Virus record (IMG/VR): IMGVR_UViG_3300003873_000030
Location: 1 to 36,160 of that record
Reading direction: 5' to 3' (one strand)
DNA: 36,160 nt
Origin: a virus
Shown here: positions 7,308-23,889 of the stretch, piece after piece
How the letters are laid out: every line of letters begins with the position of its first letter
Numbering within the stretch: position 1 is the stretch's first letter
Program-made: the position numbers and the translations under genes
The notes under the pieces: model-generated
Seen by the model: the letters and a program-made list of their open reading frames with translations, nothing else
Told to the model about the DNA's origin: nothing
Database searches by the model: none

Positions 7308-7367
7308 TTATAGCTTTAAGTGTCTAGCATTGTATAAATTAGCCCTACTGCGGGTGCAAGCTACGTA
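7308..7367 (-). pseudogene. Relic of the original helicase C-terminus
   Basis: These 20 codons encode YVACTRSRANLYNARHLKL and a stop, a close match to the intact helicase end YVAVTRARANLHNARFLKL at 7776-7835. The DNA has diverged at most third positions. No start codon or ribosome binding site precedes the homologous part. The relic is separated from the helicase by a plus-strand HNH gene and keeps normal spacing to the next gene. It is the tail left behind when an endonuclease cassette with its own recoded tail entered the helicase gene. Confidence 0.75.
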
Positions 7368-7407
7368 TTTTCTAAGTAGTTGTTTATAGTTCTCGATGTA
7401 ATTATAG

Positions 7408-7413
7408 TATAAT
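7408..7413 (+). promoter_or_regulatory. -10 element for the plus-strand HNH gene
   Basis: TATAAT 18 bases upstream of the ATG at 7431, with AAAGGG between them as ribosome binding site. No good -35 is seen. It is the only plus-strand promoter candidate in this minus-strand block and fits an independently expressed endonuclease. Confidence 0.4.
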
Positions 7414-7430
7414 AACCTAAAGGGTTTATA

Positions 7431-7795
7431 ATGACAGCAAAAATATGTTATAAGTGTAAAAATAGTCTTAGTGTAAATAATTTTCATAAACAAAGTCGAT
7501 CTCCTGACGGGTTAGGTAATATATGTAAAGATTGTAAACGTATTCAAGATAAAGAATACCGTGAAAGAAATAAAGAAAAATTAGCTCTTAGCTAAAGAAC
7601 AAAATTATAACTGTAAATGGTGTAATAATCCTTTAAACTATGAATTACTTAAACAGATTCATTTAGATCATATAATACCTTTAGCAAAAGGTGGTATTCA
7701 TTCTATAAGTAATGTTTGCTGGTCATGTGCTAGTTGCAACTTTAAAAAAATCTTCTAAATTACCAGATGAATTCATTACAACTTTAAAAACCTAG
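7431..7795 (+). pseudogene. HNH homing endonuclease, frameshifted
   Basis: A plus-strand gene inside a minus-strand operon. The first frame (7431-7595) encodes 54 residues with a zinc-type start (CYKCK and CKDCK). The second (from 7594) encodes CKWC, then the HNH core HLDHIIPLAKGGIHSISNV and CASCNFKK. The frames differ by one base at about 7590. A second one-base slip in a run of seven A (7744-7750) would restore the C-terminus SSKLPDEFITTLKT, ending at 7795 in antisense overlap with the helicase stop. Either the gene has decayed or the read has two indels; both lie in or near A-rich stretches. Confidence 0.7.
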
Positions 7796-9212
7796 CATTA
7801 TGAAGGTTAGCTCTGGCTCTTGTCACCGCAACATACGCCAGTTTGAGTATTACTTTATCTTCTTCGCTTTCAGGTCCACCTTTGTCGATGATTCTAGATA
7901 CTGCATTATTGAGGTCCTCGTTGATGTGTACTGTCTCAAAACCTAAGCCTTTACAGGAATGAGCAGTAGAAACTAGTACTCGTGGATCACGCTTAACTTT
8001 CTTAGCTTCTGCTAGTACATCCCAAATGCTAATACGCTTTTGACGGAATGTTTGCAGGAGTTTGACAGTATTACGAATTTCCTCATCATCTACTTCCTCC
8101 ATAAGATAGGTCATAAAAGAGTTATAGCTAGACTTAACAAAATGCTTGTATTCACGCTCAAGGAACTTATACTCTCTATGGAATACTGATTTACCTGTAC
8201 TTGCTGTTAGTACTGCTAGAGGAGCTGCAAATATGTCTTTAATAGGTCGAGTTAATATGTAGCCTTGACCTTCACGGTGGAGATCGTTGATGGTTTCTAC
8301 AATGGATGCATTAGTGGCTGATAAGAAGGCTGTCTTGCCGTCTAATACGGGATGTTCGACACCCTTGAAGTGGAAATTAGCAGATAAATGCTTCTTACCG
8401 AAGTCTTCAACAGCTTCAGCTATGGCAGTAGAACAACGAAATGTTTGTGTAAGAGAAAAAGTAACTGTGTTATCCAATATTTCAAAGCCATTAACTAGGT
8501 TCATGAAATGATAAATTGATTGGTTCTGATCACCTAATCCGAGTTTGCCTTTAGCATTCATAAGCTTAAAGATCTCCAAAGCTACTGCGGTAGAATCCTG
8601 TATCTCATCGAATATGATTAAGTCATAACCTACTGATATTTCCTCATTGGCTAACATAAAGTGAAACCACTTAAGAAGATAGTTAAATGTAGGGTTTATT
8701 TTATCATTTATCATAAGATCTATATATTTAGTACAAATATTAGTTAATTTATCTGCTATTGTTGTGTGCTTTTCTTTATTTATTTCAGATTTAGATAGTT
8801 CTTTTTTAATATAAGTACTGATGTAGTCTTCCATATCTAAAGAAGCAGAACGATAAAACTCATCAATAGCTTTAATAATAATAGATTTGTAGTAATAAGT
8901 AATGTCTTCTTTGATACACTCATAAGTAAGCTTATCTATTTTAAGTTTAGGTTTGACTTTAGATAATGCAAGAGAGTGTAATGTACGACATTCAATAGGA
9001 GTACCTTCATAAAGTTCTTTGGCTTCATCTACAATACTGCGGTTAAATGCTGTATATAGGCCTTTCTTAGGTTTGAGAGCTTCTACTGCTTTAGTCGCTG
9101 TATGCGATTTGCCAGATCCCGCTACAGCGTTAACTAGTACAATAATGCCATTGCCAGCATGCTTCTTTAAGTAATTGATAGGAGCTAACTGCTCTTTGGT
9201 TAATGATTGCAT
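7776..9212 (-). CDS. Superfamily 1 DNA helicase (UvrD/Rep-like)
   Basis: 478 residues. Motifs run in order: Q-like start TKEQLAPINY, Walker A AGSGKS (31-36), motif II LIIFDEIQDST, motif III GLGDQNQSIYHF, motif IV LTQTFRCS, motif V STAHSCKGLGFETV and motif VI YVAVTRARAN. It is shorter than bacterial UvrD, as in N4-type phages. It is expected to unwind DNA at the phage replication fork. Its last 20 codons are a recoded copy of the relic at 7308-7367 and arrived with the HNH cassette, yet motif VI arginines are retained, so the protein should be active. Confidence 0.85.
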   Translation of the reverse strand: MQSLTKEQLAPINYLKKHAGNGIIVLVNAVAGSGKSHTATKAVEALKPKKGLYTAFNRSIVDEAKELYEGTPIECRTLHSLALSKVKPKLKIDKLTYECIKEDITYYYKSIIIKAIDEFYRSASLDMEDYISTYIKKELSKSEINKEKHTTIADKLTNICTKYIDLMINDKINPTFNYLLKWFHFMLANEEISVGYDLIIFDEIQDSTAVALEIFKLMNAKGKLGLGDQNQSIYHFMNLVNGFEILDNTVTFSLTQTFRCSTAIAEAVEDFGKKHLSANFHFKGVEHPVLDGKTAFLSATNASIVETINDLHREGQGYILTRPIKDIFAAPLAVLTASTGKSVFHREYKFLEREYKHFVKSSYNSFMTYLMEEVDDEEIRNTVKLLQTFRQKRISIWDVLAEAKKVKRDPRVLVSTAHSCKGLGFETVHINEDLNNAVSRIIDKGGPESEEDKVILKLAYVAVTRARANLHNARFLKL

Positions 9213-9220
9213 ATGTCTCC

Positions 9221-9454
9221 TTAATTTATTATTTGTATTTTATTAGTAGCAGGAATTAAGAAATAAACACATTCAGGATCGTCTTCCTTATCCTTAGCTA
9301 TTATTCTTTTTGCTTCGAATATGTTTAATGCTGTTGGTAATTCATTTCTTTTACACTCATCATGGCTTATCCATTGACCAGTTACATTACTTTGTCGATA
9401 CCAATAGCTATTTGCTTCAGTGTGTACTTGTATATAAAATAACATATCTGTCAT
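9221..9454 (-). CDS. Small NIFEAK-family paralog
   Basis: 77 residues. ALNIFEAKRIIAKD aligns with the other members of this small family in the block, followed by a short strand (CVYFLIPAT) that matches ILFEYWVEPIT in the member at 10393-10632. It lies 8 bases upstream of the helicase start and is co-transcribed with it. No function is known to me. Confidence 0.6.
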   Translation of the reverse strand: MTDMLFYIQVHTEANSYWYRQSNVTGQWISHDECKRNELPTALNIFEAKRIIAKDKEDDPECVYFLIPATNKIQIIN

Positions 9455-9459
9455 GATAG

Positions 9460-10251
9460 CTACTTATTGAATAAAGTATTGTATCTCTTAGCTATGTTAT
9501 AGATAAAAAGGTTATATTTGAGCTGTTTATGTTGGTCTGCTACTTTATGAGTATTAGATGTTACAAGTTCGTTATCTACTTTGATAGCACGTTGGACTTT
9601 GCCTTGTAGAGCATTATATTGGATACGTTGATAAGTATGCCAGATTGTCTTTGGTGTATCTTCAAGACGATGAGCTACATTGAGTTCCATAGGATCTACA
9701 ATACGGCCTGTAATGTCCTTATTTAGCATTTCTGCTACTTCTTCAGCATAACGGCCTTGATCGCCATAAGATAAATAGGTATTCATCATTTGCTCAATGG
9801 TTTGATTAGCACGATATTTAGCTGATTGGTATTCATTAGCTACTTTAGCTATTGTTTCTTTCCAGCCTTGGAATGTGTGCTTAATACGAATTGGTTCCAT
9901 AAGGTCATCACCGAACACGCAATCATTTGAACATGCATCACGGTAGTAACCTAAGTAAATACGAATACTAGTAGAACGGTCAAGTGAATTGAATAGTACT
10001 AAACGTAATGTACCATCAGGCATCTGTGCATCTTCAGGTTCAAGCATAATCATGTGCTTTTGCTTGTTTTCTTTTTCTAGTTTACGCACACGACTAGCTG
10101 AGAAGCCTACAGGCTTAATATCCATATATTGTTTTAACTCTGTAATAATATCCTCAGTTGATGTGTTGATGTATTTAGCTGATACGTTTCCGTATACCTC
10201 TTTGTTTGTAATGATGTTTTCGTTAACATCATGGTTTAGTGCAAATGCCAT
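9460..10251 (-). CDS. DUF932-like protein
   Basis: 263 residues. The central part (LRLVLFNSLDRSTSIRIYLG, then YRDACSNDCVFG and IRIKHT) follows the DUF932 pattern found in phage and plasmid proteins, in which an RLVLTNSHD-like strand is followed by R-x-V-C-S-N-G. The C-terminal 120 residues are helical. Biochemical function of the family is not established. It is placed between helicase and VWA genes, 5 bases upstream of the next gene, which fits a replication-linked role. Confidence 0.65.
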   Translation of the reverse strand: MAFALNHDVNENIITNKEVYGNVSAKYINTSTEDIITELKQYMDIKPVGFSASRVRKLEKENKQKHMIMLEPEDAQMPDGTLRLVLFNSLDRSTSIRIYLGYYRDACSNDCVFGDDLMEPIRIKHTFQGWKETIAKVANEYQSAKYRANQTIEQMMNTYLSYGDQGRYAEEVAEMLNKDITGRIVDPMELNVAHRLEDTPKTIWHTYQRIQYNALQGKVQRAIKVDNELVTSNTHKVADQHKQLKYNLFIYNIAKRYNTLFNK

Positions 10252-10261
10252 TAGTTCTCCT

Positions 10262-10409
10262 TTAAAAATTTATACCATTTGATATTGTTTGTAATTTATC
10301 TATGTATGTTAATAACTCTGGTTTAGTGCCTTGTAATGCGTTTTCTATAATCTGTATCGTTTTGCAGTTTATCGTATTCTGTTATACTATCGTTAATGTG
10401 TATTGTCAT
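10262..10409 (-). pseudogene. Small gene broken by a one-base frameshift
   Basis: The ATG at 10409 overlaps the end of the gene upstream and opens a frame (MTIHINDSITEYDKLQND) that stops at 10323. A second frame, shifted by one base near 10355, continues as IQIIENALQGTKPELLTYID and ends at 10262, directly before the ribosome binding site of the DUF932-like gene. Together they fill the whole gap with coding-like sequence, so this was probably one protein of about 48 residues. Could also be a base-calling error. Confidence 0.5.
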
Positions 10410-10632
10410 TTGAGTTCCTTGTTATTGGCTCTACCCAGTATTCAAAAAGTATTCTATCTATGTTTTGTTGCTCAGTTATAAAAGTCTTAGCTTCAAATAT
10501 GTTAAAAACTTTAAATGCAGTATTAGGTAATCCTTTACTTACAACTTCCCATTTATTATTAGTATATACTAAAATAGGGGAGTTATCTTTAACTAAATCT
10601 ACAGCTTTACCGTATACATGTACTTTTTCCAT
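10393..10632 (-). CDS. Small NIFEAK-family paralog
   Basis: 79 residues. AFKVFNIFEAKTFITEQQ is the clearest example of the family core, preceded by short strands (SPILVYTNNKWEVV) and followed by ILFEYWVEPIT. The start lies 2 bases from the stop of the VWA gene upstream. The family recurs at 6806-7057, 7029-7298 and 9221-9454. Confidence 0.65.
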   Translation of the reverse strand: MEKVHVYGKAVDLVKDNSPILVYTNNKWEVVSKGLPNTAFKVFNIFEAKTFITEQQNIDRILFEYWVEPITRNSNDNTH

Positions 10633-10634
10633 AA

Positions 10635-12074
10635 CTACTCCATCATAATATTTACAGTTGGAACTTTCATTGGATTATTAACCGGACATACAAGATAAGT
10701 TTTAAGCTGTTTTAAAATAGGATAGTTAGTCCATACTTGTTCTATGTTGCTATAGTTATCACTAAAACTAATATAAATTGTTTCTTGAGGGTTTTTTATA
10801 TTGGTTTGTAGCCATTTAAATACTGAACTATGTGATGTTCCCCCTGATTGGTATCTAGTAGCTAATGCATCTTTAAACTGAGGGTTGGTATCTATACCAT
10901 AGTCAGACTCAAGTACAAACTCTTTAGATATTTCTGTATCATGTATAAGTACAGTTAATTTACTAATTGATTTACCTTTATCTTCCATAAGGTATAGTAA
11001 CTTTTGTAGGCTGTCTTGAGGCATACTACCTGACTGATCAATTGATAATACTATCTCTAGTTTTGTGTCTAAATAGTATTTCTTTGGTGACTTAAAGATA
11101 GAACGGTATTTATTGTTTAGGTTGGACCATTTAGTGTAGTAGTTATGTGTCATGTAGTATACGTCACGTTCGAAAGTTGTTTTAAGCTTTTTGAACCAGT
11201 CTGTATTAATTTTAATACTTTCAAATAACTCTTCTGCTATAATTGCTGCTTGTGAGCCTTTAGCTTGAGATTGTATGACAGAATTAATTGATTGAGCTAA
11301 ATTAGCTAATTGTTCATCTGTTAATGTAGAACTATTTCCATTAGAATTACTTTCAGAAGGTTCACTAGTATTACCACTACCAGTGCCTACTTTCTTTATT
11401 TGCACTGTAGTATTACCTTTACCGTCAGTAACTTCTTGTAACTCATAATCTGTACCGTCTATTGGTGTTGTATTTACTTTACTGTTTTCTAGCAAGTCTT
11501 TAAGTATTTCAATATCAGACATTTTTTTAGAGTGATAAGTACTATCATATAAACCTTTATCTAGTAATATGTTTATCCCTGTTGAGCTACTCTCTGTCAA
11601 GTCTTTAATTGAATAGTTTATAAAGTAATCTTCAGCATAATTGATAAATTTATGTATTGTATTATCATCTAAACCAAGTTTAATTTCTTTAGCTATCCTA
11701 ATCATACGTTTATCAAATGCTGTTGTCGCATGTTTTAAAAGTATATGAAGAATTTCGTGTTGATATACATAAGCCCAAAAAGTTTGGTACTGCTCAATGA
11801 GTTTGAATAGTTTAGGTAAATCTTTATCTTCACTATAAAAGAAATCAAAGTATACTTCTGCTTCATTACCCATTTTCGTATAAGCTGTAAATGAAGTCTC
11901 AAGTTTAGAGTAGTCTACTGATGGTAGTTTAACTAAATTAATTATAATAGGTAATTTAAGGAATATGCCACTTGCTAATGGTGCAGTTTTATTTTGTCCA
12001 TATATGTTGTTAAACTCTTTTACAACTTCTTTGAAAATATACTTATCAATTTTGTATAAATATTCTTTAACCAT
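10635..12074 (-). CDS. Putative metallopeptidase / VWA-domain protein (DUF2201-like)
   Basis: 479 residues. The N-terminal half holds a zinc-protease motif HEILH (106-110) in a helix typical of DUF2201 proteins. A low-complexity Ser/Asn/Gly linker lies near residues 225-245. The C-terminal third is a VWA-like domain whose metal site DQSGS (D346, S348, S350) is intact. N4-type phages carry a VWA protein next to an AAA ATPase, and here the MoxR-type ATPase is two genes upstream. MoxR/VWA pairs usually act as a chaperone-like machine on a partner complex; the target here is unknown. Confidence 0.75.
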   Translation of the reverse strand: MVKEYLYKIDKYIFKEVVKEFNNIYGQNKTAPLASGIFLKLPIIINLVKLPSVDYSKLETSFTAYTKMGNEAEVYFDFFYSEDKDLPKLFKLIEQYQTFWAYVYQHEILHILLKHATTAFDKRMIRIAKEIKLGLDDNTIHKFINYAEDYFINYSIKDLTESSSTGINILLDKGLYDSTYHSKKMSDIEILKDLLENSKVNTTPIDGTDYELQEVTDGKGNTTVQIKKVGTGSGNTSEPSESNSNGNSSTLTDEQLANLAQSINSVIQSQAKGSQAAIIAEELFESIKINTDWFKKLKTTFERDVYYMTHNYYTKWSNLNNKYRSIFKSPKKYYLDTKLEIVLSIDQSGSMPQDSLQKLLYLMEDKGKSISKLTVLIHDTEISKEFVLESDYGIDTNPQFKDALATRYQSGGTSHSSVFKWLQTNIKNPQETIYISFSDNYSNIEQVWTNYPILKQLKTYLVCPVNNPMKVPTVNIMME

Positions 12075-12114
12075 GGTTTATTTTCCTTTTTACTTATTTT
12101 ATTATACGTCAATA

Positions 12115-12687
12115 CTACCTATTTATACTATTTATAATAGTTCTTTTAGGGTGTTTATAGCGTTTTTCTTTTTGTATATACCCTGATTTTATAATGTCAA
12201 CGATTTTTTTAGTTTCTGTAGGAAACGTAGAGTAGTTATTTAAATTAGGTTTAAAGCCTTCTTCTTGTAGCATTTGATTATATACTGCTATACGTAATTC
12301 TTTATACTTTAATAAAGAACAAGCTTTAGATTCAGACATAGTAGTAAGTACTTTATCCATAATCGCTATATCTCTAGTATCAGAAAATAATAGTACATCC
12401 ACGTAGTTACGCCCTAAAGTTGGTAATGCTTTTAATAAAAAAACTTCACCATATTTAGGTTTACTCGTAATATAACTGTTAAATGTTTGTTCTGCTACTA
12501 GTAATTTTTTACTTTTTAACTCAAATAATGATGTACCTAATTTATCTAAGTCGTTAATATGAAAGTAGAAATCGTAATCAGATGTTGGATTATGCAACCT
12601 TAAACGTCTAGACCCAAATAAATGCTTAGATATCTCAGATAAAGCATAAGTATCAATTACTATTTTGTTACTGAAAAATGCGGACAT
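12115..12687 (-). CDS. Nucleotidyltransferase-fold protein
   Basis: 190 residues. FGSRRLRLHNPTSDYDFYF (24-42) is the Pol beta-type signature: a GS motif, then D37 and D39 as the first metal pair. YVDVLLF supplies a likely third Asp at 97. The rest is helical with a basic C-terminus. It lies between the VWA and ATPase genes. The substrate is unknown; related minimal nucleotidyltransferases act on nucleotides, RNA or proteins, and phage copies can also be antitoxin-like. Confidence 0.65.
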   Translation of the reverse strand: MSAFFSNKIVIDTYALSEISKHLFGSRRLRLHNPTSDYDFYFHINDLDKLGTSLFELKSKKLLVAEQTFNSYITSKPKYGEVFLLKALPTLGRNYVDVLLFSDTRDIAIMDKVLTTMSESKACSLLKYKELRIAVYNQMLQEEGFKPNLNNYSTFPTETKKIVDIIKSGYIQKEKRYKHPKRTIINSINR

Positions 12688-12696
12688 GTTATACCT

Positions 12697-13836
12697 TTAA
12701 AAAAATTCTACAATGTATTTAAATAATGTTTCTCTTGACGGTATTGTGACCTTAGATGAGTCAGGTTTGATGATTGCATCAATAAGTAAACTAGTGCCTT
12801 TAGGAATTGGTTTACCTGCTTCACGTACTAAATACTTGTTATACAATTCACCAGTTAAGAAGCCTAAGAATGTGGCTTCGTCTATGTTTTTCTCAATTAA
12901 CTTTACTGCATATTTAGCATCTGCTTCTGATTCAATATAGTTTACAATATAAGCGTAAAGAATTGCGTCAATAGGTTTAAGTTTAGATACATCTACAAGC
13001 TTTCTACGTTCTACAATACCACTGAAATCAATTTTATGGATATACTCAATATGCTTAGCAAACTCAACTGCAGCGTTACGTGACATTTTCATTTCTGCTA
13101 GTTCTTTCGCATTAGCAAGAATAAATTCAGGAGTATATAGATCAAGCTCTGAACCGAAATATGTACATGAACGTGGTGTAAGAAATTGTTCGATGCCCGT
13201 TGACTCTTCTTCTTGAATGTATTGTGGGTATAGTTTGATAAATGATGAAATGTAGTAATTTAAGAATCTACCATGAGACTTGAACCATTCATCAAAGTTA
13301 AACTCTACTGGTAGGATTGAACAACGGTCTTTGATAGGTGAATCCATACCTGAGAAACCGGCTTCATCGGAATCGTTCATAGCTGCTACAAGAGCCACAC
13401 GAGAATCGAGCTTATAAGAGCCTAGAGCGCGTTCTTCTAGTAAACCGTATAGATATGGTGCTACTGACATATTAATGCGGTGAAGGTCATCTAACAGTAG
13501 TACACATCCACCTTTCTGCTCAGCTAAACGATTAGCTTCCATAATCATCATTGGTACTGTCCAATCAGTTGCTTGTGCTAACATAGAACCAGTTTTACTG
13601 TATTGTGCCATATCAGGAGCATCAACAAAATTAGGAAGTCCAGATAATAGTTCTGAATTCAGTTCAGGCACTGAATAGTGGACTAATCCTAACCCTAGTT
13701 TATTTGTTAAGGCTTCTATTGAACGAGTTTTACCTAATCCAGGCTTTCCGCTAAAAACTACCGGTTGTACGGGTTTACCTTCGATTTGTGCTTTAATATT
13801 TGCTTCTACTACTGTTACTGCTGTTTGTAATTCCAT
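12697..13836 (-). CDS. MoxR-type AAA ATPase
   Basis: 379 residues. Walker A is GKPGLGKT (30-37), Walker B VLLLDDLHR (112-120), and sensor 1 is VALVAAMNDSDEAGFSG. Sensor-like arginines follow at SPIKDRCSILPVEF. The C-terminal 150 residues are helical. N4-type phages have such an ATPase near their VWA gene. It is 9 bases upstream of the nucleotidyltransferase gene and overlaps by one base with the small membrane protein upstream. Expected role: ATP-driven remodelling together with the VWA protein. Confidence 0.8.
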   Translation of the reverse strand: MELQTAVTVVEANIKAQIEGKPVQPVVFSGKPGLGKTRSIEALTNKLGLGLVHYSVPELNSELLSGLPNFVDAPDMAQYSKTGSMLAQATDWTVPMMIMEANRLAEQKGGCVLLLDDLHRINMSVAPYLYGLLEERALGSYKLDSRVALVAAMNDSDEAGFSGMDSPIKDRCSILPVEFNFDEWFKSHGRFLNYYISSFIKLYPQYIQEEESTGIEQFLTPRSCTYFGSELDLYTPEFILANAKELAEMKMSRNAAVEFAKHIEYIHKIDFSGIVERRKLVDVSKLKPIDAILYAYIVNYIESEADAKYAVKLIEKNIDEATFLGFLTGELYNKYLVREAGKPIPKGTSLLIDAIIKPDSSKVTIPSRETLFKYIVEFF

Positions 13837-14069: not shown

Positions 14070-14300
14070 TTATTTTTCCCTATTGTTATTATTATCTTCG
14101 TTGCAGTTTTCGTCAGGTAAATCATATTTACCTATCCATTCACCATCTGGTGTTATTTGTACTTCTCCATTAGATGAGCCTACCCATTCCCCATCTGGAG
14201 TTAAAGTAGGTTGTCCACTTACCCAATTACCATCTGGTGTTAATGTTAGGTCTGCAAATAAGCTTGCAACTAATAATAATGTTAATGTTAAATGTTTCAT
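14070..14300 (-). CDS. Secreted protein with TPDGxW repeats
   Basis: 76 residues. The first 16 residues (MKHLTLTLLLVASLFA) are a typical signal peptide with a cleavage site after SLFA. The mature part is three copies of (L/I)TPDGxW(V/I)xG, at about residues 20, 32 and 50, then an acidic, Asn-rich tail. It should be exported to the periplasm. I do not know the family by name. Possible roles are envelope modification or superinfection exclusion, both conjecture. Confidence 0.65.
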   Translation of the reverse strand: MKHLTLTLLLVASLFADLTLTPDGNWVSGQPTLTPDGEWVGSSNGEVQITPDGEWIGKYDLPDENCNEDNNNNREK

Positions 14301-15713: not shown

Positions 15714-15722
15714 TAGTTATCC

Positions 15723-15947
15723 TTATGGTCGTTTAAAATACTCATCTGGTATTACATACTCTTTAAAAGTTAATACTGGTGCTGAGCTATAATTTACAGC
15801 TCCATAGTTAGTGTAGTACTCAATGCTATCATCTGTAAAAGTAACTTCTATAGGATAGATTGTATTAGGTTTTATATTAGTTACTACACCTTTTCCATAA
15901 TTTATATCATAAACTACATCATCTTCTTTATAGATTGTTTTGCTCAT
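15723..15947 (-). CDS. Small beta-rich hypothetical protein
   Basis: 74 residues. The opening KEDDVVYDINYGKGVVTNI is the pattern of an SH3-like barrel (VxDxxYGKGxV), as in CarD- or KOW-like small domains. The ATG overlaps the thyX stop as TAATG. Confidence 0.5.
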   Translation of the reverse strand: MSKTIYKEDDVVYDINYGKGVVTNIKPNTIYPIEVTFTDDSIEYYTNYGAVNYSSAPVLTFKEYVIPDEYFKRP

Positions 15948-16854
15948 TAGTTATCCTTATATTTTTTACTTATAAGGTTAAGATATTTCTGTGGTGTAGC
16001 TTTAACTATTTCTTCAGCTAACCATCGTATACCAAAATATGCTGCACCTGAGTCACGAAGTTTAAGAAAATTAGATAAACTACGTAAATTCATAGTCATT
16101 ACCAAATCGACTTTCCAGTTATCTGTAACTACCCATTTGAAGTTATCTCCAACATTTCTTTTTTGTTTATTTGATTGTAAATATTTAAATATTTCATCAA
16201 TTGTACTTTTACTGTGATTAGCAACATACCATTCGTATGATGATTTTGATAATGCTAATTTATGAAATTCGGTATCAAGTTTCTCTACTTGATACCACAG
16301 TTTATCCCATAATTGGGATATTTCTAGATATTTAGCTTTATCTTCAACTACTAAAAAATTCATATCTTCTAAATACTTAATAAATACATCTTTATTATGA
16401 GTATGCATACATGCTATAAAAGCGTTAATAATAGGTGACATAGTATACCTAGTCGATTGTACCGTATAGCTAGCGATTCTATGACGTACTATCTCTTGTA
16501 GTACCCCACGTGGTGTACCTTTTATTAAGAAAGTAAGATTACAATGTTCAAGAACTGAGTCATGGTGGTATACATGGGCTAATTGGTCGAGTAAGTCTGA
16601 ATGTTCAATATCATTAAGTACAGGTTTAATATGATTAATGTTAGGTACAGCTACATCTGTATATTTAGTATTTATTACTTTATTTAATTCTGTTACTGCT
16701 GTATTTTCACTTTTATCAAATGAGTTATAGGCTGTACGCCCAGCTAGGCATACTCCGAAGTGCCAAGACCTGACTCTTGGAGTAAATAAACTTTAGGCCT
16801 ATTGTATGTAATCCCTGCTACTTCTGCGTTTTTATAGTCTTCTTTACTAATCAT
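15947..16854 (-). pseudogene. thyX: Flavin-dependent thymidylate synthase, frame broken near start
   Basis: The body, in frame from 16741 to 15947, is ThyX. GRTAYNS corresponds to the N-terminal AARxCY-like segment, and RHRIASYTVQSTRY is the signature motif RHRxxSxxxxSxRY. ThyX makes dTMP from dUMP with FAD and methylenetetrahydrofolate. The present 5' end starts at 16854 (MISKEDYKNAEVAG) and stops at 16744 because of a 5-base insertion compared with the relic upstream (17623-17721). The body frame has no start codon upstream of 16741, and its first ATG comes after the signature motif, so the gene looks inactive unless the insertion is an assembly error. Confidence 0.75.
16751..16792 (-). repeat. 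42-base direct repeat of thyX 5' end, copy in thyX
   Basis: Identical at 41 of 42 positions to 17639-17680, encoding VYLLQESGLGTSEY in both. Upstream of it the two copies diverge in DNA but still encode AGITY, so the match is a conserved duplicated gene end. The near-identity of this part suggests recent gene conversion between the copies. Confidence 0.85.
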
Positions 16855-17569
16855 TTTTATAAGCTCCTCTTTTATGTTTAATATTTTGTATAACGTCAGC
16901 TGATACATTATAAGTTTTTGCTATATTTTTAATAGTATCAGTTTTTAACAAGGCTTTAATTTCTACTACTTGATTTTTAGTTAATTTTTTCGTTGTTTTC
17001 TTTTCCGTTAAAGTGGGTAATTTAACGACTTTTTCAAAAGACCATCTAAAGCCTTTATGTGTTTTTCGTTTGCCTATTATAGCCATATGTAAGGTGCCTT
17101 GTGAACCGTTTATCTCCCTAGCTGCTTCTCCGGTAGAACCATAGCTACTAATATAGTTACCGTTTAAGTCGTATTTGTGTACTTCTTTTCCGTCAAACGA
17201 TTCGTAACCAGGCTTATTTTGATGTGTTACTACAGCACCACTAAGTTTTTTATTTAACACCTTGTAACTGTGTAACTCATTTTCTGACGGTGTAACCCAT
17301 TCAAGATTTTCAACTCTGTTATCATTATGTATTCCATTTTTATGGTTTATATGTGGTTTGTTTTCAGGATTTGGTATAAATGCTTTAGCTACTAATCTAT
17401 GAACGAATAAGTCTCTCCTAGTTCCGTCATCTGCTGTAAGTTGAGTCCGTCTATACCCTTTTCCGTCATCTCTATCTTTTTTAACCTTAGGTACCTTTCC
17501 CCAATAAGATAAGATTTCACCATACTCATTAATTTTATACTTAGGATACCCCTCTATTTCTTTGTACAT
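16847..17569 (-). CDS. HNH homing endonuclease (NUMOD4-HNH-NUMOD1)
   Basis: 240 residues. The N-terminus KEIEGYPKYKINEYGEILS is a NUMOD4 module. The HNH core is VHRLVAKAFIPNP, then HINHKNGIHNDNRVENLEW with the catalytic His and Asn. VHKYDLNGNYISSYGSTGEA is a NUMOD1 module for DNA recognition, and a final helix-turn-helix (IKNIAKTYNVSADVIQNI) closes it. A GCAGGAG site precedes the ATG. It lies between the thyX relic and the present thyX start, and its stop overlaps that start. It probably cleaves intact thyX alleles near the insertion point. Confidence 0.85.
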   Translation of the reverse strand: MYKEIEGYPKYKINEYGEILSYWGKVPKVKKDRDDGKGYRRTQLTADDGTRRDLFVHRLVAKAFIPNPENKPHINHKNGIHNDNRVENLEWVTPSENELHSYKVLNKKLSGAVVTHQNKPGYESFDGKEVHKYDLNGNYISSYGSTGEAAREINGSQGTLHMAIIGKRKTHKGFRWSFEKVVKLPTLTEKKTTKKLTKNQVVEIKALLKTDTIKNIAKTYNVSADVIQNIKHKRGAYKND

Positions 17570-17597
17570 TTTTACTCCTGCGATTTCATATGTCGCT

Positions 17598-17606: not shown

Positions 17607-17622
17607 TAATGTAGTGCATATA

Positions 17623-17721
17623 TTAATAACGTCCAGCGTACTCTGAAGTGCCAAGACCTGACTCTTGGAGTAAATAAACTTGTGGTTTTTTGTAAGTAAT
17701 TCCTGCTACTGTTTCATTCAT
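17623..17721 (-). pseudogene. Relic of the original thyX 5' end
   Basis: 32 codons and a stop. The ATG at 17721 follows AAGGACT, and the frame encodes an N-terminus containing VAGITY, then VYLLQESGLGTSEYAGR, then Tyr and TAA. Its last thyX-like codon is CGT (Arg), at the point where GRTAY continues in the ThyX body. It is the 5' part of thyX cut off by the HNH cassette; it may still be translated into a short peptide. Confidence 0.75.
17639..17680 (-). repeat. 42-base direct repeat of thyX 5' end, copy in relic
   Basis: Partner of 16751-16792 with a single difference. The HNH gene lies between the two copies, so recombination across them would delete the cassette and leave one thyX gene. Confidence 0.85.
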
Positions 17722-17722
17722 A

Positions 17723-17929
17723 CTAGTCCTTATTTTCAAATTGTTTCCAATCCGTATACTTTAATTTATACTCATTTGGATTTAACTTATAATATACCTC
17801 ACTGATAGTTTGGTTATTTTCTTTAGCTTTAGCTAATACATCATCTATATAACTAACATCGTAACTTATAAATATTGCTATAATAAAGGTAACTATACAA
17901 CCTAACATAAAAGCAAGTAATTCATTCAC
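17723..17929 (-). CDS. Small membrane protein
   Basis: 68 residues. One membrane segment at residues 4-23 (LLAFMLGCIVTFIIAIFISY) is followed by a soluble 45-residue part. Its stop is one base from the thyX relic start, the normal spacing of a gene pair, so the relic kept its original upstream neighbour. Confidence 0.55.
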   Translation of the reverse strand: MNELLAFMLGCIVTFIIAIFISYDVSYIDDVLAKAKENNQTISEVYYKLNPNEYKLKYTDWKQFENKD

Positions 17930-17931
17930 GG

Positions 17932-18396: not shown

Positions 18397-18406
18397 TTTT
18401 TATCCT

Positions 18407-18790
18407 TTATTTGTTTTGATTTAGTATCCATTCACATGCTTGGAATATTGCATCTTCTTCCATATCACAATAAAAAGATTCTTCACCAAATATGGTGGTG
18501 TTGTCTTTGGCTACAGTTAGATTTATTTTAGTTCTTCCTATACGAGGATCATATTTTATTGATATGAAATATTCTTTAGATAGCATCCATTTTTTACATT
18601 TGTCTGCCAACTGGTATAGATTTATATATCTACTGTGTGAAGATTCTTTATCTTGATATTCAAAATCTAAATCGATTGCACCATCTAACTCTGATTCAGA
18701 TATCCCAATTACTTTAATTATACCATTTTCATTTATGTTGTTAGATATTGGAATTCTTATTACTTCACTCAGCAATTCTTTAGATATCAT
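18407..18790 (-). CDS. Hypothetical protein (127 aa)
   Basis: A mixed alpha/beta acidic protein, three bases downstream of the endolysin gene. No recognised motif. It may belong to the lysis block by position only. Confidence 0.55.
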   Translation of the reverse strand: MISKELLSEVIRIPISNNINENGIIKVIGISESELDGAIDLDFEYQDKESSHSRYINLYQLADKCKKWMLSKEYFISIKYDPRIGRTKINLTVAKDNTTIFGEESFYCDMEEDAIFQACEWILNQNK

Positions 18791-18793
18791 TTT

Positions 18794-19246
18794 TTATCCT
18801 TCATAAATTAATTTGTATATATGTTTAGCACGTACACCTACTTGTCTATACCATAAAGAGTCTTTAAGAGCATTTGCAGCTCCATGATAATAATTATGGT
18901 CTAATCTCCATATAAAGACTTTAAATGTTAATAATCTAGGAATTCCTAGGTTATACGCTAAATCAATAAGTGCTACCTTTCTAGTAGAGTTTTGTTTATT
19001 GAACCATGAATACTCTTGTAATTTAAGATAGACCATGTTAAGCCTATACTTGAGTAATAACTCAGCTTCTGGTTTAGATAAGCCTTGAGTAAGGTTAGTT
19101 CCATATCCTACAGTTAAATTTCCTAAAGTATCATAGTATACAGCTTTACTATAACTTTCATGTTGTTTAACTAAAGTTAAAACAGTATTTGATAAATTGC
19201 TTGCATATAAATTAAATGCTAATAAAAGTAGCAGTATTGTTTTCAT
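18794..19246 (-). CDS. Endolysin, GH24 lysozyme with signal sequence
   Basis: 150 residues. The catalytic triad of T4-type lysozyme is present with the correct spacing: E30, D39 and T45 (QHESYSKAVYYDTLGNLTVG), matching E11-D20-T26 of T4 lysozyme. VALIDLAYNLG is the conserved helix. The N-terminal 16 residues (MKTILLLLLAFNLYAS) form a signal peptide or a release-type anchor, so export could use the host Sec system. It cleaves peptidoglycan between MurNAc and GlcNAc. The start abuts the stop of a 36-residue membrane protein gene. Confidence 0.85.
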   Translation of the reverse strand: MKTILLLLLAFNLYASNLSNTVLTLVKQHESYSKAVYYDTLGNLTVGYGTNLTQGLSKPEAELLLKYRLNMVYLKLQEYSWFNKQNSTRKVALIDLAYNLGIPRLLTFKVFIWRLDHNYYHGAANALKDSLWYRQVGVRAKHIYKLIYEG

Positions 19247-19357
19247 TTATTTTACCATATATACAAATAGAATAAACAGTCCAAAGATTATACTTCTTTC
19301 TAACCATTCAGCTTTTTTAGGGTTTTTATAAGCCCAAAACCAATATTTGAAATTCAT
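19247..19357 (-). CDS. 36-residue membrane protein beside endolysin, possible holin-like
   Basis: MNFKYWFWAYKNPKKAEWLE leads into one membrane segment (IIFGLFILFVYMV). The ATG overlaps the stop of the gene upstream as ATGA, and its TAA is followed at once by the endolysin ATG, so translation is coupled on both sides. A single-span protein translated just ahead of a lysozyme is a candidate holin, pinholin or anti-holin. That is inference from position and topology. Confidence 0.55.
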   Translation of the reverse strand: MNFKYWFWAYKNPKKAEWLERSIIFGLFILFVYMVK

Positions 19358-20028
19358 CTGTTTTCCTTTAATATGTCAATGAATTCTAATGGTGCAATAT
19401 TATCCCATTTGTTGCCATTCTTGTCTTGATAGTACTTTTCTTTACAGATACTATCAAGTTTACCTATTACCCAAAAATCATCTTTTACCAGTATATCATT
19501 ATTATCCCAAAATACACATAATTCCCCTGCTTTTGGTTTCCATCTCTTTACTACACTTCTATCGAAATTAGGTATACGAAAACGCTCTCCATTTAAAAGT
19601 TCTACGTTTTCATAATCAAGACTCTTATTCCACTGAGGCAAGTTTCCTGTGAATCTTTTAAACTGTTTTGGGTTTGAGCCTTTAATGGTAACCCAATCAC
19701 CAACTTTAAATCCTGGTTCTTCTGGTTTGATACGATACTGATTAACTGGATATGTAAAATCATCATTGGGTGTTTTATTATGGGCCATCCACTTACCCAT
19801 ATAATCTCTAATTTGTAATTGTTTACCATCAGCCAATGCTTTGCGAAACTCAGCATATTCGTCATTTTTAACATAAATCCCATATTCATCAAAAGAAGGG
19901 TCAGTTACTAAATACCATTCTTTTTGACCTTTAAAGTGCTTCCACCATACACCTTTATCAGGATTATCTATGAACCATTTCATTACTTCACCGTGTTTTT
20001 CAATTTGTTCTTTAATCATCATATCCAT
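19354..20028 (-). CDS. Hypothetical protein (224 aa), Trp-rich
   Basis: Rich in Trp, Lys and Tyr. The first 75 residues and the middle (FKVGDWVTIKGSNPKQFKRF) look like two separate small domains, the second SH3-like. Two alternative ATGs lie 2-3 codons in; AGAGG is best spaced for the inner ones. It overlaps the gene upstream by 17 bases. Similar layouts occur in phage accessory proteins; no function is assigned. Confidence 0.6.
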   Translation of the reverse strand: MDMMIKEQIEKHGEVMKWFIDNPDKGVWWKHFKGQKEWYLVTDPSFDEYGIYVKNDEYAEFRKALADGKQLQIRDYMGKWMAHNKTPNDDFTYPVNQYRIKPEEPGFKVGDWVTIKGSNPKQFKRFTGNLPQWNKSLDYENVELLNGERFRIPNFDRSVVKRWKPKAGELCVFWDNNDILVKDDFWVIGKLDSICKEKYYQDKNGNKWDNIAPLEFIDILKENR

Positions 20029-20419
20029 CCTCTGCTAGTTTTGCGTACTTCCAAGTGTTTACATCACTGGTTTCATCAACAGTCCAAGATGTTTTACCAT
20101 TACCCCAAAAGTAAACTTTACCATCTTCATACTTTGCAAAGTGTCTTTTCTCATAAGCATACTCTTTATTTAGTTTAACTAGAATAGGAGTATCTACTTC
20201 TACATCATACCAAAAACTATATTCTTCTACTAAATCGTATGGGTCATTTGCTTCATCCACATCGTATCTCCCATCTTTAGTGTAAGTGTGAATTGTATCC
20301 ACATCATGACTATTAATTAATGCCACTACTGGGTATTCATCACCTACTTTTTCAGTATAAATTACTTTAGCTTTTTTACCATTTCTGGTGAGATATGATT
20401 TATCCAATTCTAATTTCAT
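20012..20419 (-). CDS. Hypothetical protein (135 aa)
   Basis: An acidic, beta-rich protein. It starts LDKSYLTRNGKKAKVIYTEK, a strand pattern common in small phage beta-barrel proteins, and has a similar strand pattern in its second half (KYEDGKVYFWGNGKTSW). It overlaps the neighbours on both sides by 17-20 bases. Family not recognised. Confidence 0.6.
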   Translation of the reverse strand: MKLELDKSYLTRNGKKAKVIYTEKVGDEYPVVALINSHDVDTIHTYTKDGRYDVDEANDPYDLVEEYSFWYDVEVDTPILVKLNKEYAYEKRHFAKYEDGKVYFWGNGKTSWTVDETSDVNTWKYAKLAEDGYDD

Positions 20420-20594
20420 TTTTATCTCTCCTTTTATATTTACTACAGTAAAAATCTTCTAAATCTTTACCATATCTTAGATATACGTCTATTTCACAAC
20501 ATCCTGATATAGTTGTGTGTAATTCTTCTTTTTCTGCTGTATAGGCATCATCTTTTGAATACCATTTGCAGTTACTACATGATTTCTTTTCCAT
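20400..20594 (-). CDS. Small cysteine-rich protein
   Basis: 64 residues with CSNCKWY at the start, CC near residue 33 and FYCSKYK near residue 50. The spacing suggests a small zinc- or iron-binding knuckle, as in phage proteins that begin with CxxCxWY. It overlaps the gene downstream by 20 bases. Confidence 0.55.
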   Translation of the reverse strand: MEKKSCSNCKWYSKDDAYTAEKEELHTTISGCCEIDVYLRYGKDLEDFYCSKYKRRDKNEIRIG

Positions 20595-20614
20595 ACTTAA
20601 CTCCTATTATTATA

Positions 20615-20695
20615 TTATTTGTGAGTATACGTTATTAATAGCATACATATTGCTGCTGTAAGCATTATACCTGTTACTAGACCTAGTAAAAACAT
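20615..20695 (-). CDS. 26-residue membrane peptide
   Basis: MFLLGLVTGIMLTAAICMLL plus a short polar tail. It is one membrane helix filling most of the gap between two genes. The ATG is three bases from the upstream stop, but the ribosome binding site is weak, which lowers confidence. Confidence 0.4.
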   Translation of the reverse strand: MFLLGLVTGIMLTAAICMLLITYTHK

Positions 20696-20697
20696 AG

Positions 20698-20958
20698 TTA
20701 AGCGTATATTTTAAACTTATCTAGAGGTTCTGTTTTAGCTCGTGCTTTAAGTTCTTCTAGTTCTTTAAAACGTTTAAAGGCTATACTTCTCTCTAGTTCA
20801 AGATTATTATATGTATCGTTGTATTTATATACTAAAGAATTAACAAAAGTAGCTAATGCTTCAATATCTTTAATGCTGAATACTACCTCATCATGTTTAT
20901 GTGTATGTACTATATGATTAAGAGTTTTCTCCCAGTCTATTTTTGCTTTTGTACTCAT
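20698..20958 (-). CDS. Small paralog of the protein at 28964-29218
   Basis: 86 residues. Shared features with the 84-residue protein at 28964-29218: a Trp near residue 8, then FSIKDIEAL (here) against FTIKDIEDL (there), a coiled coil of similar length with a conserved LE, and the ending LDKFKIYA against LSDFSTYT. A strong ribosome binding site (AAGGAG) precedes the start. No function is known; the pair probably arose by duplication. Confidence 0.6.
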   Translation of the reverse strand: MSTKAKIDWEKTLNHIVHTHKHDEVVFSIKDIEALATFVNSLVYKYNDTYNNLELERSIAFKRFKELEELKARAKTEPLDKFKIYA

Positions 20959-21158
20959 AATATCTCCTTTAAGTTACAAGAACACTCCTAAGAGTGCTCA
21001 AGTAATTTAATTTTATAAATACGGTTTACGTGTCTAGCCCTACGTTAATATAAAGTTGCTCAGTTAAACTGCTTAAGGAGCTTCAGTACAGTCTTTCCTG
21101 TGGTCAAATAATGCCGCCTAATGGCGTTAGGATTTATATCTCGTTGGAATGCCTCAAG
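20959..21158 (-). other. 200-base non-coding stretch with hairpins
   Basis: No open frame with a start site is seen. On the minus strand an 8-base-pair hairpin (GAGCACTC/GAGTGTTC, one wobble, 20980-20999) precedes the gene downstream, and CGCC/GGCG closes a tetraloop at 21115-21126. The wobble makes the minus-strand RNA the better folder. It may be a leader or small RNA, or the remains of a lost element. Confidence 0.4.
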
Positions 21159-21335
21159 TTACATTAAAATACCATCACAGTAATTATCTTCATCGTTAAG
21201 TGTGTATTCTTCGAATTGTTCTAAAGTATTACACCAAAATTCTGTTGAGGTGTACTGTTCAGTATTGACTGGTTCTGTATACTCATCTTTTTCTATTTCT
21301 AGTAGGATATTGAGTAGTTCATTTGTTAATTCCAT
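21159..21335 (-). CDS. Small acidic hypothetical protein
   Basis: 58 residues, very acidic (about 17 Glu/Asp), with no motif. The ATG at 21335 follows a GG-containing purine stretch (AAAGGGTAAATA). The acidic composition resembles small phage inhibitor proteins or DNA mimics, but that is speculation. Confidence 0.5.
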   Translation of the reverse strand: MELTNELLNILLEIEKDEYTEPVNTEQYTSTEFWCNTLEQFEEYTLNDEDNYCDGILM

Positions 21336-21349
21336 TATTTACCCTTTAA

Positions 21350-21691
21350 TTAATTTAATATTTTTACAATTTTTATATTGATATCTTCTTTAATTTCATA
21401 CAAAGACAAACTAGGTTTAGTTATTTTTATAAACTTAGCTATAAAATATACTGTAGTATGCTGTTTAGATCTCCATAAGGTAGTAAAGTTTACTTTCTTT
21501 GCAGTTTTAACCCATAAGTGATCTATAGTATAACTAGTATTACATACAGTGATGTCTGTAAGTAACGAAGCTCTACAGGTATTATTATTTGTATTACCGT
21601 TTTTAATGTACGTTGCAGAACATACTAAAGGTTTACCAAGAAGACAGTTGTCTTCAAAATGCTGTAAACGTTCTGTTTTAACTGTCTCCAT
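21350..21691 (-). CDS. Hypothetical protein (113 aa)
   Basis: Thr-, Asn- and Lys-rich with several cysteines and a strand pattern in the second half (TVYFIAKFIKITK). The segment YTIDHLWVKTAKK is the most distinctive. No family recognised. It follows the 80-residue gene with 9 bases between. Confidence 0.5.
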   Translation of the reverse strand: METVKTERLQHFEDNCLLGKPLVCSATYIKNGNTNNNTCRASLLTDITVCNTSYTIDHLWVKTAKKVNFTTLWRSKQHTTVYFIAKFIKITKPSLSLYEIKEDINIKIVKILN

Positions 21692-21700
21692 GAATTTCCT

Positions 21701-21943
21701 TTAGTCTTGTTTAGCTATTAAAGCTGTTGCTTTTTTATAGTCTACACCTTGTTGTGTTCGTGTAGCTAGTTCAATTGCTCTGAGTTCTACTCTATAACTA
21801 TCAATAATAGTAATAGCCTGCTTGTAAACCATATCTGCTACTAATGGTGAAATTGAACCATCTCTAAGACCTATAATAGTTTCTGCAGCTTCTCTACGGA
21901 TTGTTTGTAGTGATGTATTTATTTCTTGATTTTTATTACTCAT
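21701..21943 (-). CDS. Small helical protein
   Basis: 80 residues, wholly helical. The pattern ETIIGLRDGSISPLVADMVYKQAITIIDSYRVEL resembles small phage proteins that pair helices as dimers; no motif is diagnostic. It overlaps the gene upstream by 8 bases. Confidence 0.55.
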   Translation of the reverse strand: MSNKNQEINTSLQTIRREAAETIIGLRDGSISPLVADMVYKQAITIIDSYRVELRAIELATRTQQGVDYKKATALIAKQD

Positions 21944-22451
21944 TTTGAGACTCCTTTAACTTTTGATTATATTTTTCTATAGACTTTAAATACTCATGTA
22001 CTTGCTTTTCTGTTTTATACTTTTTGATAAGCTCTATTCTATCTTTAATCGCTTCTTCTAATGTATTTCTTGTTTTTCCGTAAATACGTTTTTTATCCTT
22101 AGTAAAACGTAGTATAGCCATATAAGTAACAGTAATATTACCATCATTTTTAGTATATATCCTTATGGTACAGCCTAATATGCATTTAGTTGCTCTTTTA
22201 GTTTCACACTTGATTTTACTTAGTTTTCTTCCTGAGAAAGGTTTATATGCATTATATAATTTTTGTAATATAGCTTTATCTATACTTGTATTGTTATGTT
22301 TACAACTTGTGTATAGACTAGTAGAACAGAAATTACACATATATTCACTTAAATAGTCATATACAATCGCATTTATTTCTTTTCTAAGCTTGGAACTATT
22401 TTTACGTACAGTCTTTATAGCTGGCCTGTTTGTATTACATAGTTTACACAT
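21936..22451 (-). CDS. Zinc-finger protein with AP2-like DNA-binding region
   Basis: 171 residues. The N-terminus has CKLC and, around residue 39, CNFC, which could form a zinc site. The C-terminal part (ITVTYMAILRFTKDKKRIYG followed by a helix TLEEAIKDRIELI) follows the three-strand-plus-helix pattern of AP2-type DNA-binding domains found in homing endonucleases. No catalytic HNH is visible. AAGGAAA precedes the start. It may be a degenerate mobile-gene product or a regulator. Confidence 0.5.
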   Translation of the reverse strand: MCKLCNTNRPAIKTVRKNSSKLRKEINAIVYDYLSEYMCNFCSTSLYTSCKHNNTSIDKAILQKLYNAYKPFSGRKLSKIKCETKRATKCILGCTIRIYTKNDGNITVTYMAILRFTKDKKRIYGKTRNTLEEAIKDRIELIKKYKTEKQVHEYLKSIEKYNQKLKESQNE

Positions 22452-22460
22452 AACATTTCC

Positions 22461-22910
22461 TTACTCTGATTTAACGGATGCTTCTGATAGTTCTTCTTGA
22501 ATTGACTTCATAGTATTGCGTACTACATCTGCTGATTCAGTAGCTAATGGAGCTTCTTCGACTGCTTTACGTAGTTTGGCTAGCTCTTTATGAAGTTCTT
22601 TGAGTTTTCTTCTTGTAACTTTCTCTTTACCGTTTTTTACAGTTAGTGGTGAAAAGATAAGTGAACCTTTTGGTGAGGTCATAGCAGCTTTGTAAGTGTA
22701 TTGGTACTGTTTAACCCAGTTATGTACTGATTGCCAATTAACATTGAATTCTTCAGCAATACCTTCAAAACGGTCTTTAAGCGTACCTTCTCCAGTATGA
22801 ATACCGTTTTTAACGATGTGTGCTACTATTCTAGCTTTTGTTGCTACATCGTACCGCCAGTGACACCCCACTATTACCATTGTTTTTTCTAATTCTTTAA
22901 ATGTTTTCAT
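22461..22910 (-). CDS. Helix-turn-helix protein with replaced N-terminus
   Basis: 149 residues. FEGIAEEFNVNWQSVHNWVK is a helix-turn-helix of the transposase/Trp-repressor kind; the last 60 residues are a coiled coil. The first 17 residues contain TMVIVGCH, also encoded as TMVVIGCH in the relic at 23824-23889. The boundary between the recoded start and the shared body falls just after GGTGTCACT. The start has AGGATAAAAT upstream, weaker than the relic site, so expression may have dropped after insertion. Target sequence unknown. Confidence 0.65.
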   Translation of the reverse strand: MKTFKELEKTMVIVGCHWRYDVATKARIVAHIVKNGIHTGEGTLKDRFEGIAEEFNVNWQSVHNWVKQYQYTYKAAMTSPKGSLIFSPLTVKNGKEKVTRRKLKELHKELAKLRKAVEEAPLATESADVVRNTMKSIQEELSEASVKSE

Positions 22911-22920
22911 ATTTTATCCT

Positions 22921-23649
22921 TTATTTAATGTTATTTATTGCTTGTTGAGGCAAAATGCCTGTCATTTCTTTTTTCCATCTATCTGCTTCTTTTTTGCGTG
23001 CAAGTTTATACATTAAAGAAGCAACTTGCTTACTCTTAAAATATCCTAAACAAGTGTATCCTTTTTCTAGTGTGGAGATCTGCACTCTCCATAAATTGGT
23101 TTGTTTATTAAAGTTAACACCAATTTCTCCACTTGTATTGTCATTTTTCACATTAGTTAAAAAACTGTTTAATGCTTGTGGTATAAGTATACATGTGCTA
23201 GGAGAGTATATTTTAATTTTAGTAGAGAGTAGGTCTTTATCTAATTGCCAACCTTCTTCTTTATACTGTTTTTCGTACCATTTAGCGAATGTTTGAAAAT
23301 TATGCCATTCTTTACATACAGTAACCTCTTTATATGTAGGATATTTTTCCTGTGTTTTAGAGTCATAACATCTAGCAATCATATTATTCCAAGTATTATA
23401 AGAAAAGTGTTTTGAAGTGTATTTTCCTACTCCGAAGTACCCTACACCAAATACAGAAGGTTTAAAAGGGTATTTTATTTCTCCTGTTTTAATAACTGCT
23501 ACTTGTCGTTCTATTACCCATTCTTCGATTTTAATTGTAATATATCCTGGTTTAGTACTTGGAGCTATTACTTTTGCTGTGTACCCTTCATTTGTCAAGA
23601 AGTACGTACCTATATGCTTTTTACCATATTCTTTTGTTGAATTACTCAT
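22921..23649 (-). CDS. AP2/HNH-type homing endonuclease
   Basis: 242 residues of a common phage mobile-gene family. The middle has YNTWNNMIARCYDSKTQEKY and CKEWHNFQTFAKWYEKQY, then GWQLDKDLL, the family's conserved nuclease region. The C-terminus (GVNFNKQTNLWRVQISTLEK and YLGYF-like CLGYFKSKQVASLMY) is an AP2 DNA-binding domain. A TAAAGGATTGG site precedes the ATG, with a possible -10 (TATAAG) further up. It lies between the relic and the present start of the helix-turn-helix gene and is the probable mobile agent. Confidence 0.75.
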   Translation of the reverse strand: MSNSTKEYGKKHIGTYFLTNEGYTAKVIAPSTKPGYITIKIEEWVIERQVAVIKTGEIKYPFKPSVFGVGYFGVGKYTSKHFSYNTWNNMIARCYDSKTQEKYPTYKEVTVCKEWHNFQTFAKWYEKQYKEEGWQLDKDLLSTKIKIYSPSTCILIPQALNSFLTNVKNDNTSGEIGVNFNKQTNLWRVQISTLEKGYTCLGYFKSKQVASLMYKLARKKEADRWKKEMTGILPQQAINNIK

Positions 23650-23709
23650 CCAATCCTTTAGAGTCTTATAATTTTAATTGTCTTTTTAGTGTGAGTAAGT
23701 ATATGAAGA

Positions 23710-23790
23710 TTCCAAGCTTTACATACTTTAAAACACTTAAGTATGAGTAGTGTATGTAGGTGCTTGGAAACCTTGGTTACTACTCATACT
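23710..23790. other. Predicted H-type pseudoknot
   Basis: Stem 1 pairs 23710-23717 with 23762-23769 (TTCCAAGC/GCTTGGAA, 8 of 8) and continues as 23720-23726 with 23752-23758 (TACATAC/GTATGTA, 7 of 7), with a 2/3-base internal loop. Stem 2 pairs 23740-23751 in the loop of stem 1 with 23779-23790 downstream (AGTATGAGTAGT/ACTACTCATACT, 12 of 12). Loop lengths (13 and 9) allow both stems at once. It lies between the relic and the endonuclease gene. No known ribozyme class was recognised. Confidence 0.6.
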
Positions 23791-23823
23791 AAAATGCTTT
23801 AAAGTAGTATACCTTAATTACAG

Positions 23824-23889
23824 TTAAATTGGTATTAAGTGACATCCGATCACTACCATTGTTCTTTTGATTTTCTTTAATTCGTTCAT
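23824..23889 (-). pseudogene. Relic of the original start of the HTH gene
   Basis: 21 codons and a stop. A strong ribosome binding site (TAGGAGGGTAAA) precedes the ATG at 23889; the frame encodes MNELKKIKRTMVVIGCH, then LIPI and TAA. TMVVIGCH matches TMVIVGCH at the start of the gene at 22461-22910, and DNA identity ends right after TGTCACT. It is the native 5' end cut off by the AP2/HNH cassette and should still be translated to a short peptide. Confidence 0.7.

Follow-up and report, generated by a model that had tools for sequence, protein, structure and literature searches.

Candidate endonuclease cassettes with replacement gene ends in a phage genome, and stop-containing joins beside HNH_3 nucleases

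The window analysed here, the whole 36,160-base virus record IMGVR_UViG_3300003873_000030, contains three loci (a UvrD-type helicase, thyX and an HTH gene, numbered 1 to 3) at which an endonuclease gene lies inside its target gene near one end, between two copies of that end. Very probably each is a free-standing homing endonuclease cassette that brings along a substitute for one end of its target gene, with a join that, in N-terminal insertions of the HNH_3 type, is probably hopped by the ribosome. A preliminary description of this DNA had reported the arrangement, and we confirm it at all three loci. Similarity scores between the left and right copies are 52, 118 and 58 respectively, compared to a mean of 32 and a 99th percentile of 46 among 150 random pairs (a single pair scored 114). 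The window helicase is nearest to helicases of Alteromonas podophages (e.g. PT11-V19, AD45), and the only close relative found in IMG/VR is IMGVR_UViG_3300006076_000002 (hereafter G001; 92.9 kilobases), which is syntenic across most of the window. The helicase and HTH genes of G001 are free of the cassette, and at both loci the relic runs on into the G001 flank, downstream at locus 1 and upstream at locus 3.

Endonuclease genes between two copies of a gene end

At locus 1 the helicase open reading frame (ORF; 7776–9212, minus strand; Pfam UvrD-helicase and UvrD_C) shows a drop in identity to G001 that separates a native body (about 7840–9212, minus strand) from a cassette-derived new 3' end (about 7776–7839, minus strand) in the region of helicase motif VI. 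Convergent with it is a degenerate HNH gene (7431–7795, plus strand), which matches HNH_5 and HNH in a frame-restored reading, followed by the relic of the original 3' end (7308–7367, minus strand), identified by comparison with G001 and adjoining the old neighbour gene. Window positions 6700–7367 and 7840–9243 match G001 21537–22191 and 20121–21532, and because these two segments are contiguous in G001, abutting with a gap of 4 nucleotides (nt), G001 is cassette-free here. The relic is identical to the native helicase end of G001 at 54/57 nt (94.7%), compared to 32/57 (56.1%) for the cassette-side copy, and is on this basis the native copy. In 60-nt steps along the helicase gene, identity to G001 is 75–93%, but over the final 57 nt it is 56%, thus the donor boundary is sharp. 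The native end and the copy also differ in amino acids (VACTRSRANLYNARHLNL compared to VAVTRARANLHNARFLKL), which speaks for a divergent donor and against synonymous recoding. Two frameshifts interrupt the HNH gene, as expected of an old cassette with a decayed nuclease.

At locus 3 the target is an HTH protein (22461–22910, minus strand; weak match to HTH_Tnp_1) with a cassette-side 5' end at about 22859–22910; window 21356–22898 aligns with G001 at 77%. The endonuclease (22921–23649, minus strand) belongs to the AP2-HNH family by family alignment (46% to the G001 nuclease at 37227–37955), and beyond it lies the relic of the original 5' end (23838–23889, minus strand). Window 22859–22898 on the cassette side and 23838–23951 on the relic side map to one and the same G001 copy, 10249–10353. 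The relic keeps the native ribosome-binding site and upstream flank, while the sequence upstream of the cassette side is unrelated, and it is by this flank that the displaced copy is recognised as native. At both loci 1 and 3 the inserted end is in frame with the gene body.

Between the locus 3 relic and the start of the AP2-HNH gene there is a long inverted repeat (23724–23806; 28-nt arms, 89% complementary), which possibly regulates the nuclease. In the HTH gene of G001 (10311–10760) LTVK is followed by an in-frame TAA, beyond which homologous sequence continues.

Locus 2 differs in its join. The thyX body (15947–16741, minus strand; Pfam Thy1) is an open frame in the ORF list with no ATG, GTG or TTG before the methionine at 16441. 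It is preceded by a cassette-borne new 5' end (16744–16854, minus strand) consisting of a start codon, 36 codons of which the last is the take-off codon GCC, and then UAG, and by a coding gap, TAGCT (16742–16746, minus strand), in which the UAG stop overlaps the landing codon GCU (16742–16744). The new start reads MISKEDYKNAEVAGITYNRPKVYLLQESGLGTSEYA, then TAG, with the body frame (GRTAYNS...) resuming 5 nt on: TAT GCC TA GCT GGG CGT. The endonuclease (16847–17569, minus strand; Pfam HNH_3 and NUMOD1, with a NUMOD-like C-terminus) has a stop codon that overlaps the new thyX start. The relic of the original 5' end (MNETVAGITYKKP...EYAG; 17633–17721, minus strand) shares 28 amino acids with the cassette copy, which is 88% identical to it in DNA; it ends in GCTGG, and GCTGG occurs again at the body side. 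A single-protein search and a direct DNA-pattern search for the thyX motif both gave no match, and alignment was needed to reach a cassette-free relative, the intact thyX of contig L109 (body 62% identical). There a relic-type start, MTETIAGIEYKKPHVYLMNESGLGVAELAGRTAYNS, is fused to the body in one frame with no gap, hence the relic is the native thyX start.

Between the window body and that of L109 nonsynonymous divergence (dN) is 0.32 and synonymous divergence (dS) 2.35, and the frame is open and conserved. Given the stop and the lack of a start codon before 16441, thyX is either a dead gene or one that needs the ribosome to shift or hop. G001 retains an 83-nt decayed piece of the thyX cassette side (14137–14219; the first part of the new 5' end) before a different, shorter ThyX, thus its ancestor probably once had the cassette; the fragment is a trace of cassette loss or gene replacement.

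These comparisons bear out the expectation that cassette-free relatives would match the relic side, by identity at locus 1 and by the L109 start at locus 2, but at locus 3 by the flank only. Likewise, the body is joined to the cassette-side copy as described at loci 1 and 3, but at locus 2 the join contains a stop and a 5-nt offset. The idea that the copies are simply recoded, and so protected from re-cleavage, fits poorly, as they look like divergent homologues (locus 1) or are barely changed (locus 2). Nor does entry without loss of function follow for locus 2: the ORF there is broken, and a protein would be made only if ribosomes shift or hop. The observation therefore stands and its interpretation is mostly right, the stop-containing join at locus 2 and in its relatives being the more striking point.

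Comparison of flanks revealed no duplicated end beside the other nuclease genes of the window: a SegE-type GIY-YIG gene (3149–3595), an HNH gene (24235–24657) and an intron GIY-YIG gene (25592–26299). The SegE-type gene occupies the same place in G001 with about 82% DNA identity. Window 18414–18628 matches G001 30805–31019 out of synteny with its neighbours and represents a moved gene.

Recurrence at other nuclease loci

The preliminary description suggested that the design had arisen or been selected repeatedly and that relics should be sought beside nuclease genes elsewhere. Our surveys looked for protein-level matches repeated on the two flanks of a nuclease gene, and covered 87 AP2-HNH loci, 85 HNH_3 loci, a further 80 HNH_3 loci of viruses and 80 loci of bacterial genomes (the sets partly overlap). 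Nine distinct loci of 332 scored at least 70, compared to 2/475 control genes, and further cases at other genes thus place the recurrence clearly above controls. The cases worked out closely include replaced 3' ends of a DnaB-type helicase (L158) and a terminase (L179), replaced 5' ends of terminases (L191, L210, L233), a 5'-end replacement in L073/L074 and a further case, L227; L369, L379 and L024 also scored in the surveys and are not among these. In G001 itself a fourth case was found, the AP2-HNH nuclease at 37227–37955, which lies at the 3' end of a PD-(D/E)XK-like gene (annotation from a homologue) and has 54 end residues plus the stop repeated on its far side. The end-replacing design is recurrent, yet not the rule.

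In L024 the two flanks of an AP2-HNH gene (3001–3789) carry a short palindrome, apparently non-coding, as direct copies.

Ordinary mosaicism would explain such loci without any cassette design, the nuclease genes sitting at recombination boundaries and the short repeats being by-products. Homing endonuclease genes are indeed located at exchange boundaries in phages (PMC10448857), and similarity to G001 resumes abruptly on either side of the insertions. However, the same geometry recurs across several nuclease families and target genes, and the gene bodies remain intact at conserved motifs, which makes this explanation quite improbable.

Stop-containing gaps at HNH_3 joins

At ten distinct HNH_3 loci, including the window thyX, a stop-containing gap lies between the new N-terminus and the body, within a conserved motif. 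The gaps measure 5–6 nt or 32–42 nt (the long ones counted with the landing codon). The short ones are those of the window thyX (GCC-TA-GCT-GGG, 5 nt), the L142 terminase (ACG-TA-ACT-TCA, 5 nt), the L191 terminase (CGG-TGA-CGG-GGC, 6 nt, in frame) and motif I of a C5-methyltransferase on a Bacteroidaceae genome contig, L310 (GGT-TAG-GGC-GGC, 6 nt, in frame), while the long ones split the terminase P-loop GGTSAG/KT (L210, L227–L230, L231, L232, L233, L234). The stop directly follows the take-off codon in the short gaps, is separated from it by one codon in most long gaps and lies further on in L227–L230. Long gaps contain a CCCCC...GGGGG hairpin with 0 pairs broken in six distinct terminase sequences and compensatory changes at several positions; no hairpin is found inside the 5-nt window gap or the other short gaps. 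In 10/10 distinct gaps the landing codon is synonymous with the take-off codon (e.g. GCC/GCT, ACG/ACT, CGG/CGG, GGT/GGC). As both copies come from the same gene, the codon match arises automatically with a one-codon overlap, and what stands out is that the length of the overlap never departs from one codon.

An automatic scan for hop-like joins produced many chance candidates, and we kept only joins with homology continuing across the gap. When joined proteins are aligned with cassette-free homologues, no gap opens at the junction, and the terminases L224, L250 and L286, with no nuclease at this site, are intact and gapless. No clear relic was found in L142, L310 and L234, thus the common features there are the gap and the nuclease rather than a duplicated end. 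A search of 395 Bacteroidota genomes for more gaps returned just the known L310, and the L233 gap region had no DNA match among GenBank phages. Most gap-bearing relatives are metagenome contigs, which limits biological inference.

It could be argued that the interrupted genes are pseudogenes broken by the cassette and the gaps mere debris. The first 100 codons of the window thyX body contain no start codon, the locus 1 nuclease is itself degenerate and G001 has another ThyX. For thyX alone this reading is possible. It is less so for the terminases, which are essential and have constrained bodies (54–78% amino acid identity, synonymous sites mostly saturated), and debris would account poorly for matched codons in ten distinct gaps and a covarying hairpin common to six of them. 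Overall we give it perhaps one chance in four. Rescue by stop-codon readthrough, frameshifting or re-initiation instead of hopping is also unlikely, slightly more so: the 6-nt gaps of L191 and L310 are in frame, and L232/L233 have an ATG within the gap in the body frame, but readthrough would not rescue the 5-nt gaps of the window and L142, and there is no usable start before the motif in L210, L231, L234, L142 or the window.

Locus 2 and its relatives might instead be introns, in which case the upstream relic would be exon 1, spliced to the body with removal of the nuclease and the copy. HNH_3 nucleases are often intron-borne, the ICP1 terminase is spliced beside nuclease genes (PMC10448857), the window thyX relic and body would be in frame, and the window does contain a true group I intron (26346–26639, minus strand), which served as a positive control for the Rfam search (83.8 bits). 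Yet the thyX region has no Rfam match even at E 10, and the HNH ORF leaves hardly any space around it; at gathering thresholds Rfam likewise finds nothing in representatives of the other nine gap loci, and in L210, L233, L227 and L191 relic and body together lack the P-loop codons, so splicing would not restore the protein. Since Rfam detects no catalytic core and the relic plus body fails in four relatives, we reject the intron at locus 2 and regard splicing as very improbable for the group.

The group I intron of the window has a GIY-YIG/NUMOD3 gene beside it (25592–26299) and adjoins or lies within a 508-amino-acid phage gene (26578–28104).

With these alternatives considered, we lean towards placing the window thyX in a previously unrecognised phage family of mobile HNH_3 cassettes, which would carry a replacement N-terminus and a short, hopped bypass gap into essential genes at conserved motifs (thyX, terminase P-loop, C5-methyltransferase motif I). 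The gap would destroy the cut site, and T4 gene 60 would be one example of a wider class.

Proposed mechanism and comparison with known systems

We propose that cleavage by the nuclease takes place at a conserved motif close to one end of a gene not yet invaded. A divergent donor would then serve for repair, by homology on the longer side of the gene, and the body would become joined to the donor end and the nuclease gene. The other side would be repaired illegitimately, and the original short end would therefore remain as a relic, leaving a joined gene without an intact cut site. N-terminal insertions of the HNH_3 type would in addition place a stop-containing gap at the join; ribosomes probably hop from one synonymous codon to the other to produce the protein, as they do in T4 gene 60.

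Several points weigh against this interpretation. The relics are short, and without the relative the scores at loci 1 and 3 would be modest by themselves. At locus 3 the coding part of the relic is about as distant from G001 as that of the copy, and the upstream flank alone is decisive. The duplicated end is missing at most surveyed nuclease loci, the window thyX could be dead and the ThyX of G001 is a different one. What the sequences show directly is the layout, the lack of it in relatives, the recurrence and the gaps; cleavage, homing, the route of repair and hopping are inferred.

Under the cassette interpretation, a selfish nuclease without an intron can settle within the coding part of an important gene by bringing the gene end along. 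If the gaps are bypassed, the oddity of T4 gene 60 becomes a recurrent strategy, and several natural short and hairpin gaps become available for probing the requirements of ribosome hopping. For annotation, terminases and other genes beside HNH genes may look broken though intact.

In T4 gene 60 a short first ORF, with an HNH gene upstream, runs to a GGA take-off codon, after which come a stop, a hairpin and a landing codon that matches (PMC3014915, PMC11194080, PMC5009743). A 2010 review calls this bypass case apparently unique (PMC3014915), and the title of Bonocora et al. 2011, as cited in PMC8300805, presents nuclease and gap as a mobile cassette. The T4 39/mobA/60 region and the gap loci share the upstream HNH gene, short N-terminal ORF (46 codons in T4, 25–36 in the gap loci), take-off codon, stop, synonymous landing codon and open body. 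The T4 gap is 50 nt with the stop directly after the take-off codon, and its hairpin is shared with the long gaps, whereas the 5-nt window gap has none inside it. As a case of end duplication T4 was rejected, there being no repeat between the gene 39 end and the gene 60 start (score 28).

The split genes of Aeh1 nrdA/mobE and T4 39/60 (PMC2988022) likewise have a free-standing HNH nuclease within a critical gene, but there the protein is in two pieces, whereas here the gene end is replaced. The byp elements of Magnusiomyces mitochondria resemble the proposed gaps in being many short inserts skipped by ribosomes, but are mitochondrial, and the passages concerned in PMC5009743 describe no nuclease or gene-end copy.

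End-replacing mobile ORFs are general in fungal mitochondria (Allomyces atp6; Glomus atp6, atp9, cox2 and nad3; PMC3630166), as the preliminary description noted for Allomyces. As here, an endonuclease gene is flanked on one side by a foreign end joined to the gene body and on the other by the native end that has been displaced, and native copies are 91–98% and inserted copies 64–81% identical to relatives (PMC3630166), a split that matches the pattern of locus 1. The present cases differ in occurring in phages, in their HNH and AP2-HNH nucleases (LAGLIDADG or GIY-YIG in the fungi) and in the replacement of 5' as well as 3' ends. End replacement is thus already known from fungal mitochondria, and by analogy the phage cases can be seen as a variant of that layout.

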